From Candidatus Bilamarchaeum dharawalense (GTDB lineage: Archaea; Micrarchaeota; Micrarchaeia; Anstonellales; Bilamarchaeaceae), in contig CABMJJ010000009.1 of NCBI GenBank assembly GCA_902386555.1, forward strand, positions 151,680 through 215,679: a stretch of DNA of 64,000 bases, read 5' to 3'. Below the pieces are notes generated by a model that saw only the letters and a list, made by a program, of their open reading frames with translations, had not been told where the DNA came from and searched no databases. Below are positions 40,313-43,218 of the stretch, one piece after another. How positions within the stretch are numbered: the first letter of the stretch is position 1; each line of letters starts with the position of its first letter. A program made the position numbers and the translations under genes.

Positions 40313-40373
40313 AAACTTTAGGCATAACCAAATAGTTAGGATGCCGAGGTCGCATAACCCGGTAGTGCGTCGG

Positions 40374-40390
40374 AAGCATATGCTGGCGAA
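40374..40390 (+). other. Putative 17-nt intron of tRNA-Ser at position 30/31
   Basis: Seventeen bases containing the self-complementary AGCATATGCT interrupt the anticodon stem. Removal restores a T31-A39 pair and a normal serine anticodon loop. Archaeal introns at non-canonical stem positions are known, but the boundaries are deduced only from tRNA folding. Confidence 0.5.
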
Positions 40391-40397
40391 TCTCGAA

Positions 40398-40438
40398 CCG
40401 GTTTAGCCGGGTCTTTTTCCAAAAAGACTCGGAGAGAC
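40398..40438 (+). other. Putative 41-nt intron of tRNA-Ser at canonical position 37/38
   Basis: It contains a 12-bp hairpin (CCGGGTCTTTTT with AAAAAGACTCGG, 40407-40432, loop CC). Bases C32-T33-C34 can pair with the intron GAG at 40434-40436, and three-base bulges then fall at both cut sites, matching a bulge-helix-bulge splice substrate with one mismatch at position 35. Confidence 0.6.
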
Positions 40439-40507
40439 AACCGATCCCTTGTGGATTACAGGTTCAAATCCTGTCCTCGGCGTTTTTTTAAATTTAATAG
40501 GAGCATG

Positions 40508-41246: not shown

Positions 41247-41320
41247 GCGGTTGTAGTCTAGCCTGGTTAGGACTTGGGGTTTCCAACCCCATAACCCGGG
41301 TTCAAATCCCGGCGACCGCA
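41247..41320 (+). tRNA. tRNA-Gly(TCC)
   Basis: A full intronless cloverleaf: acceptor GCGGTTG with CGACCGC, D-arm GTC...GAC, anticodon stem TGGGG/CCCCA with loop TTTCCAA (anticodon TCC at 34-36), T-arm with TTCAAAT loop, discriminator A. No CCA is encoded. A TTTAATATAC box lies about 20 bp upstream. Confidence 0.93.
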
Positions 41321-41391
41321 TCCGCCTTTTACTAAAAGGCGGCCCAAAAGTTGGTTGCTATTTTGTGGGCCATCGAACTCTGTTCGATTGG
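41321..41391 (+). repeat. Three-hairpin element directly after tRNA-Gly
   Basis: The gap 41321-41584 has no gene. Stem I: CCGCCTTTT/AAAAGGCGG (41322-41342). Stem II: GGCCCAAAA with TTTTGTGGGCC (41341-41371) around an 11-nt loop ending TTGCTA. Stem III: CCATCGAAC with GTTCGATTGG (41370-41391). The order and the core TTGCTATTTTG match the insertion inside tRNA-Thr at 42923. The rest of the gap to 41551 shows nothing clear. Confidence 0.6.
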
Positions 41392-41584
41392 ACCGTAAAT
41401 TTTCCATAGTTATCAAAAATCCTTGTTTTTTTCAAATTTTAAGTAAAAAAATAAATGAAAACCAAAAAATAGCTAAAACCACACAAACCTACCTTCCAAA
41501 AGTGGGTTTTTTGTGCATTAACACAAAATTTACCTCTGCCACATAAGAACATTTTTAAACTCCTTTATCCATAAGAAAAGTAGT

Positions 41585-42877
41585 ATGGCGCCCAGACAGA
41601 TTGCTGTTTCAGATGTATTAGTTGAACGCGACCGACCTAGGCGGGCCCTTGTTGAATTAGCTCAAAAATTAGCCGAACCGGATCGAGACTCACAGTCAAC
41701 TTTTAGGCTAAAAAAAACTCTTGCTTCGGATTGTGGAGCAACTATGGCAATGTTCAAAATAGGAAGATTGATGAATGAAGATTTTCCAAAACTCGGGGAT
41801 TATATTGCAGCATTGATGTCTGTTTTTGAATATGCACGTTATTGTGGAGTGTATTTGTTGCCAAGAGTAGCCGAGGGATCGGTTGGACGATTGGAACACC
41901 GGGTTTCGGTACTACGCAACGATCCTTTTTTTACAGTCTATGGATCGAACGAAACGGATTTGATAGATCCAGATTCACCAGTAGTAAGATTACGAAATCT
42001 GGCTTTTGCTGGAAAGCATCCAACGTTCTTTGATTACGATGCCGGACTCAAGCTTGTTTTTGATGATCTTGATATGAATAATATTGGTTGCACTGTCCAC
42101 TCGTTCCCAGAAACTGTGGATGTCTTAAAAATGGGTTCCCTGGCCCTCATGCCATTCCATTATAGAGACCCAAGCTATCCTTCGGGTATTGTTTTATTTG
42201 AAGGTGATCTTAGATGCAAGGACTCCAGACTTGGCGGGGTGGAAAGAGCATTTTGGGGAGCTCACGCAGCAGTGGAAGCAGCCTCACAGATAGCATTTAT
42301 GATCACCCAAAAATTTGATGCCATCACCACTTTGACTAAATTAGTTGACTTTAACGCAGACCTTGTCAATGCCATAAGACTTGTAAGTGCGGGAGCAAGT
42401 AGGGATGCCTGGGTGCTGCTCATAGATTTGGATGATCTTAAAAAATTGAACAACATCAGCTACCAGGAAGGGAATATACAGTTGAGAAGATTGGCAGATA
42501 CTGCAAAGGCTTCCATTAGACCGAGTGATATGGTTGCAAGATGGGGCGGGGATGAGTTTGCCGCATTGCTTAGAGGGGTGGGAAGGGAAGAAGCCCTGGC
42601 CATAGCTGACAGGATAAGACAAAATTATGCAAATCACATCAGACAGGGGCATGGAGTAACCTGTAGCATTGGAGTTGCAAGTGTTGATGAAGTTATACGC
42701 ACCAGACTAGGAGGACTTGTTGGTCTGTCTGGTATGCCCTATGATTTAATGGAAGGAGTTTTCAACGAGATTTTTAGTAATGCAAACACAGCAGTACAAG
42801 AATCAAAACATCAAGGTAAAAACAGAGTATACTATTTTGAAAATGGAGTTGTCACGCCCTACGTACCAAGCTTATAA
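41585..42877 (+). CDS. GGDEF-domain protein (putative diguanylate cyclase) with N-terminal sensor-like region
   Basis: This 430-residue protein has a C-terminal GGDEF domain: LLIDLDDLKKLN (metal/guanine-binding strand), the RxxD inhibitory site at 312-315 and RWGGDEFAALL with GGDEF at 321-325, then TCSIGVASV. The N-terminal 240 residues are globular, perhaps GAF-like, with no membrane helix. GGDEF proteins make cyclic di-GMP in bacteria and are rare in archaea. A TTTTTAAAC box (41552-41560) gives a leaderless start. No EAL or PilZ protein is visible in the window. Confidence 0.88.
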   Translation: MAPRQIAVSDVLVERDRPRRALVELAQKLAEPDRDSQSTFRLKKTLASDCGATMAMFKIGRLMNEDFPKLGDYIAALMSVFEYARYCGVYLLPRVAEGSVGRLEHRVSVLRNDPFFTVYGSNETDLIDPDSPVVRLRNLAFAGKHPTFFDYDAGLKLVFDDLDMNNIGCTVHSFPETVDVLKMGSLALMPFHYRDPSYPSGIVLFEGDLRCKDSRLGGVERAFWGAHAAVEAASQIAFMITQKFDAITTLTKLVDFNADLVNAIRLVSAGASRDAWVLLIDLDDLKKLNNISYQEGNIQLRRLADTAKASIRPSDMVARWGGDEFAALLRGVGREEALAIADRIRQNYANHIRQGHGVTCSIGVASVDEVIRTRLGGLVGLSGMPYDLMEGVFNEIFSNANTAVQESKHQGKNRVYYFENGVVTPYVPSL

Positions 42878-42922
42878 ATTGAATTAAACTATTTTTTGTA
42901 ATAGAGTGCCTCAGTAGCTCAG

Positions 42923-43002
42923 CGCGCTTTTTTAGGAAAAAAGCGCGGCAAAAAACGTGTTTGCTATTTTGCCGTGTTATAAAACTAAAAAAGTACGGGA
43001 AA
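42923..43002 (+). other. 80-nt insertion in the D-loop of tRNA-Thr
   Basis: It separates AG from TGGTA of the D-loop. It contains stem I CGCGCTTTTTT/AAAAAAGCGCG (42923-42947), stem II GGCAAAA/TTTTGCC (42947-42973) with a loop ending TTGCTA, and a weaker stem III CCGT/ACGG (42972-42998). No protein is encoded. A canonical bulge-helix-bulge is not obvious because stem I abuts the exon. Confidence 0.7.
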
Positions 43003-43023
43003 TGGTAGAGCGCCTCTCTCGTA

Positions 43024-43161
43024 AACTTTTTGGAAAAAAGTTTAACAAAAACCATTTGGTTGCAAAACCCTTTCGGGTTTTGAATGTTTAACCTATTTTG
43101 CGGCCCACGGGAAGCAAAATTAGCATCCCAGTTTTGGGGTGCCTTTTTCCAAAAAGGCACA
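43024..43161 (+). other. 138-nt insertion at position 37/38 of tRNA-Thr
   Basis: Non-coding and rich in hairpins: AAACTTTTT/AAAAAAGTTT at the 5-prime end, GCAAAACCC/GGGTTTTG near 43062-43082, ATTTTGC/GCAAAAT, and GTGCCTTTTT/AAAAAGGCAC (43139-43160) touching the 3-prime exon. It includes CTATTTTG, part of the core shared by the other elements. The position is canonical for an archaeal intron but the length without an endonuclease gene is unusual. Confidence 0.7.
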
Positions 43162-43218
43162 AGGAGGAAGTCGGGAGTTCAACTCTCTCCTGAGGCTTTT
43201 GTTTATGGAGTAGGATTT

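Follow-up and report, generated by a model that had tools for sequence, protein, structure and literature searches.

The window, a stretch of 64,000 nucleotides from Candidatus Bilamarchaeum dharawalense, carries an intact, intron-less tRNA-Gly(TCC) gene (41247-41320; called by ARAGORN and scored at 66.1 bits by the Rfam tRNA model) on the forward strand, as are all features below unless stated otherwise, with its discriminator base at A41320. The very next base, 41321, opens an element of three consecutive hairpins, exactly as the preliminary description had placed it, and all three are held in the minimum-energy fold (z -3.7 and -3.5). Hairpin I (TCCGCCTTTT-act-AAAAGGCGG, 41321-41342) has T4/A4 arms around an ACT apex and is flush with the tRNA 3' end; it matches (G000:C9:192998-193044, E 7.9e-8) model R1 of the recurrent module discussed below, a model built from 88 module sequences and hence partly trained on the genomes searched. 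It is followed by a CCCAAAA/TTTTGTGGG stem (41343-41369) that contains the motif TTGCTA and is recognized by motif statistics as well as in the folds, and then by hairpin III (ATCGAAC/GTTCGAT, 41372-41388), a perfect 7-bp stem. At 41390-41397 the end of the tRNA may be repeated in degenerate form (GGACCGTA compared with CGACCGCA), a likeness that is weak by itself; clear copies of a tRNA 3' end stand after such trailers in relatives. T-rich stretches occupy 41396-41434. No described RNA family in Rfam 15 matches the element, and across the window that database returns two tRNAs at gathering score and otherwise weak matches below threshold.

Beyond a GGDEF (diguanylate cyclase) domain protein encoded between the two tRNA genes (41585-42877, E 9e-20), of a kind unusual in archaea, lies a tRNA-Thr(CGT) gene in three exons (42908-42922, 43003-43023 and 43162-43197). 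The exons were delimited by joining: removal of both introns, 42923-43002 and 43024-43161, yields a standard tRNA-Thr(CGT) that ARAGORN accepts, and if either intron is left in no tRNA is called. Joining fixes the region rather than the exact base, since tRNA-Thr is still called when both cuts are moved by 3 or 6 bases. The second element of the preliminary description, which had been located inside a D-loop, is there only in the sense of an intron, as exon joining and the pairing of its ends indicate: it is an 80-nt D-loop intron with a sense module, in which hairpin I spans 42923-42947. Past the 5' bulge, AG^C, the first intron bases, GCGCTTTTTTAG, form 11 of 12 pairs with CTAAAAAAGTAC before the 3' side, an inner-stem pairing matched by only 9 of 20000 shuffled interiors, and because the central helix H has just 3 of its 4 pairs the bulge-helix-bulge is a relaxed, imperfect one. 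In a relative's gene (L100; the same gene occurs in L063) the bulge-helix-bulge at the corresponding D-loop position is perfect, with H=GCTC (GCTC/GAGC) and an inner stem of 9. When the tRNA-Thr insertion is folded to minimum energy, a long-range stem between CTAAAAAAGTAC and the 5' arm of hairpin I takes that hairpin's place, so that hairpin I and the splicing fold are mutually exclusive.

The second tRNA-Thr intron occupies the canonical anticodon-loop place. A sense hairpin (43022-43044) stands at its 5' end, and its 3' end has an antisense module on the reverse strand (43116-43163; R1 match G000:C9:194795-194842, E 2.8e-7) whose hairpin at 43139-43160 faces exon 3. In two-module introns of this sort, namely this canonical one and that of tRNA-Asp, inspection by hand found no convincing pairing between anticodon loop and intron and no convincing splicing motif. 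The splicing endonuclease itself is represented in the genome by two PF01974 proteins, one of 391 aa with N-terminal and catalytic domains, whose size we take to be similar to that of the epsilon2 type, and a second of 166 aa. The tRNA-Gly copy, by contrast, is a 3' trailer beginning right after the discriminator base and not an intron, because the tRNA is complete before it, so that it does not lie between exons of an RNA, and because its ends do not pair: the best partner strand for its 5' arm gives 8 of 13 pairs, which 1992 of 2000 shuffles equal. A further intron-bearing tRNA-like gene was noticed at about 40342-40483 and contains a T5/A5 hairpin (40407-40432); when introns are permitted, ARAGORN labels it Val(GAC), a doubtful label.

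The two elements have in common an 11-mer, TTGCTATTTTG, at 41355-41365 and 42961-42971, and two copies per 64 kb were reached in none of 100 shuffles. The common architecture proposed for them holds in part: the tRNA-Thr insertion has a T6/A6 hairpin and a GGCAAAA/TTTTGCC stem, and nothing in it corresponds to stem III. The 11-mer occurs six times in the genome, compared with once for the reversed pattern. It is nevertheless unspecific, since four of the six copies have no upstream hairpin when their contexts are read by eye; to that extent the 11-mer is found outside such structures, the very circumstance that the preliminary description had set against its own proposal. The conserved unit is a module longer than the 11-mer, consisting of a hairpin with T(4-6)/A(4-6) arms and a short apex, mostly AGG, followed by a few bases, C-A(n)-C, some 5-6 further bases and TG[CT]TA.

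Several counts against shuffled sequences bear on this consensus. TG[CT]TA keeps its distance from the A-run of C-A(n)-C, 5 or 6 bases with few exceptions, in 39 of the 183 hairpins collected (shuffle mean 5.9, maximum 14). In the exact matches to the search pattern, which left the outer three stem positions free, 164 of the 168 cells at those positions are paired, as against a mean of 133 and a maximum of 146 in shuffles; this is the less biased test, covariation counts on alignment A1 being circular because at least 8 hairpin pairs were required for entry. That alignment omitted 34 of the 122 collected references for thinning, and the bacterial loci L102, L119 and L130 were dropped before the counts. 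Moreover, the T-run equals the A-run of C-A(n)-C in length in 77 of 124 hairpins that had not been selected by the pattern (shuffle mean 32.1, maximum 48). Three lengths were seen to vary together (n = 4, 5, 6), even for one stem within one genome, namely those of the two runs in hairpin I, T and A, and of the A-run in C-A(n)-C. A triple helix is one conceivable cause of this length rule.

At E<=0.01, R1 has 53 matches at 38 places in this Micrarchaeota genome of 1.27 Mb in 11 contigs. At 26 of the 38 places the module lies inside a tRNA gene or flush with one and at 12 it does not, a count made by reading the contexts by eye because both automatic approaches were too weak: labelling with a 45-sequence tRNA library failed, and a splice search of 59 pattern loci, whose criteria miss genes that need two removals, returned 8 introns, 19 loci with a tRNA nearby and 32 with none, some of these matches being dubious. 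The Rfam tRNA model likewise saw only two tRNAs at 15 disrupted-tRNA loci and was unusable for labelling copies. Flush trailers also follow tRNA-His, a tRNA-Ser and a second tRNA near C7:88.7k, the last two judged by eye and the last with a match of only E 0.028. In a scripted scan of 94 ARAGORN tRNAs (in which the tRNA of L150, called Ser, is one that we read as Leu) the three flush trailers are all sense and the two flush leaders both antisense; in flush copies, that is, the module hairpin faces the tRNA. Intron-less tRNAs with no adjoining module also exist, for example at L009 and L015. Separately, we saw by eye that tRNA 3' ends recur downstream, with as many as about 18 bases exact, around short inserts at L011 (tRNA-Gly(GCC)), L018 (tRNA-Ser), L052 (tRNA-Gly(TCC)) and L133 (tRNA-Gly), with or without a module.

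The places outside tRNA genes are varied. The SRP RNA, the only RNA that Rfam found at the non-tRNA places (E 5.5e-15, under the gathering score), has a copy starting at its 3' end (L175, C3:14461). Another copy lies inside a probable C/D guide RNA (C4:51114), judged from its box motifs. Two copies begin at stop codons, those of the ribosomal S3Ae gene (L178, C11:38216) and of an oxidoreductase gene (L177, C1:75236), one stands just before the gene of a GTPase with a TGS domain, and the remainder have no clear neighbour gene, one of them being cut by a contig end. Ahead of each of two intergenic copies (L181 and L182, at C7:99167 and C9:390452) stand CCTCATTTCCGC and a TATA-like stretch, and the two perhaps belong to an intron-bearing small RNA that is still undescribed.

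Triosephosphate isomerase, used as a bait, recovered no named relatives. With the DNA pattern, in a collection of species genomes, 56 of 59 exact matches fall in Micrarchaeota or in archaeal records taken for Micrarchaeota, that is, in records titled Micrarchaeota or 'ainarchaeum' and in DeMMO3 isolates titled 'archaeon' that we took as the same group. The three bacterial matches (L102, L119 and L130), two of them with a paired stem, have no tRNA detected beside them and are probably due to chance. A viral source of the module was rejected, as a pattern scan of viral contigs gave no match. With R1, 57 of 196 genomes drawn from the phylum have a match. The density is greatest within the genus, where 13 of the 14 genomes drawn have between 6 and at least 31 module copies each; beyond it most genomes have no or few copies, the exceptions being G017 (29), G149 (20) and G057 (14).

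The intron of tRNA-Asp(GTC), a gene identified from its joined exons, and the intron of another tRNA gene (C7:88527) have 115 nt at 90% in common, with an 80-nt core that is almost identical between end hairpins that differ; near-identical insertions in different genes, by which transposed introns are recognized, are thus present here. The 3' end of tRNA-Gly(TCC) was found in 10 of 12 same-genus genomes and none of those trailers has the hairpin, and in 5 of the 10 (G002, G005, G006, G010 and G016) a near full-length isomerase match lies upstream, as in the present genome. A related T3/A3 hairpin follows tRNA-Gly(TCC) in G005, and a genome of another family, G057, has a sister copy at the same base after tRNA-Gly (L031). 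Taken together, the near-identical intron core, the genus-limited abundance and the empty sites point to recent copying of the module.

The reading that we prefer, with a probability of roughly 0.7, is that the tRNA-Gly and tRNA-Thr elements are copies of a mobile, intron-forming insertion family of Micrarchaeota that has its own conserved end module. Each copy would start, or in mirror image end, with a T(n)-NNN-A(n) hairpin that directly abuts the retained RNA; C-A(n)-C and then TG[CT]TA would come next. The introns would be cut by the tRNA splicing endonuclease that the genome encodes and sealed by an RNA ligase, and the tRNA-Gly copy would be removed as a 3' trailer, presumably by RNase Z, during formation of the tRNA 3' end. 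The family may spread by transposition into RNA genes, where their removal from the transcript would allow copies to survive, and the common 11-mer would have been inherited from the family consensus. We identified no mobility enzyme, and no target duplication is common to all copies.

A bolder form of this idea, which we hold to be unlikely, is that the element spreads as RNA: the excised, structured RNA would be joined to cut RNA ends by the endonuclease and ligase and then copied back into the genome. Copies do stand at intron junctions, at the 5' and 3' ends of tRNAs, at the SRP RNA 3' end and in the probable C/D guide RNA, and wherever the side could be told the hairpin is set against the retained RNA. 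On this view the copies would mark sites at which RNA is cut and sealed. If true, archaea would have in this element an equivalent of the eukaryotic introners, one independent of any transposase gene.

Among explanations that dispense with mobility, we consider the most serious, though still with little confidence in it, to be that the module is a portable signal for processing or protecting RNA ends, with a nuclease or binding protein recognizing the hairpin and C-A(n)-C and cutting at its base, so that the module recurs at RNA boundaries by function and not by jumping. The orientation of the flush leaders and trailers suits such a signal, as do the copies beginning at the SRP RNA 3' end and at the two stop codons, and the T(n)/A(n) length rule suggests a defined fold. 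Many introns, however, have one module only, which leaves one junction without a signal; some intron-less tRNAs do without the module, some intergenic copies are at no visible RNA end, and the near-identical core of two introns points to copying.

The preliminary description was right that the two elements are related and that their shared sequence is no accident; its further argument, that an identical loop on differing stems speaks for selection on the loop, is unsupported. Descent from a spreading family accounts for the identity of the 11-mer, since dozens of module copies per genome lie in many tRNA genes, and the loop in particular may be identical by descent, since the tRNA-Asp and C7:88527 introns keep their core while their end hairpins differ. 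Selection on the loop is possible, and TG[CT]TA is conserved at fixed spacing. A protein or RNA contact conserving the loop TTGCTATTTTG nevertheless seems improbable to us: TG[CT]TA is confined to the minority of collected hairpins counted above and varies in the others, recent common descent also yields identity, and in the fold the TTTT of the supposed loop is paired with CAAAA.

We think it very improbable that the trailer is simply a transcription terminator or stability hairpin of tRNA-Gly whose likeness to the tRNA-Thr insertion is a convergence on simple T-run/A-run hairpins. Its position directly after the tRNA and the T-rich stretches beyond it would fit a terminator, but the conserved C-A(n)-C and TG[CT]TA are no terminator features, the same module lies inside tRNA genes, where a terminator would do harm, and it is missing behind this tRNA in the same-genus relatives examined. 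Finally, the copies might be palindromes of REP/IS200-IS605 type moved by a Y1 transposase: they are short palindromes, numerous, present in both orientations and with fixed flanking bases, and some copy-rich relatives (G010, G011, G012 and G014) have a Y1 gene. We nevertheless reject this mover as hardly credible, since the present genome has no Y1 transposase, the gene occurs in no more than 15 of 59 relatives, and it is absent from the copy-rich G004, G009, G013, G017 and G057.

Known systems resemble the preferred insertion family in part. Transposing tRNA introns are known from Thermoproteales (Fujishima et al. 2010, as cited in PMC4033280), where, in the available text, similar introns occur in different tRNA genes, at many non-canonical positions and several per tRNA, as they do here (PMC4033280). 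The Micrarchaeota family belongs to another phylum, has a conserved end module, and has copies flush outside tRNAs, at the SRP RNA and beside protein genes; the comparison with Thermoproteales is by description only. The tRNA introns of ARMAN/Micrarchaeota, cut by an epsilon2-type endonuclease, come from the same phylum and share the relaxed bulge-helix-bulge and the variety of tRNA positions, and the accessible portions of these accounts describe neither a repeated family of related introns nor copies outside tRNAs (PMC4033280, PMC12397907). In Caldiarchaeum, a tRNA-Thr gene is disrupted by a mobile element (PMC3293823), and there, to judge from the excerpted account, intron gain and scattered tRNA fragments are tied to insertion, as here; that element measures 1.8 kb and encodes a recombinase, whereas the Micrarchaeota elements are about 45-140 nt long and contain no gene. 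Bacterial REP/REPIN and tagged palindromic repeats, as far as the consulted extracts go, are likewise short, palindromic and present in many copies (PMC3116915, PMC3733652), but there is no Y1 in the Micrarchaeota genome and its copies concentrate in tRNA genes, not between protein genes. Asgard genomes are described, in the part of the source available, as having intron-rich tRNAs (PMC11291895). Our literature search found no account of the present module.

These observations bear on how archaeal tRNA genes gain introns, which is an open question. They also have a practical side, in that tRNA genes here can escape standard finders: ARAGORN called two in the window, and the tRNA-Thr gene was not among them. 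A genus with one recognizable module in the introns, leaders and trailers of tRNAs and beside other RNAs, and in whose relatives empty sites are found, offers a recent and testable case of such gain.
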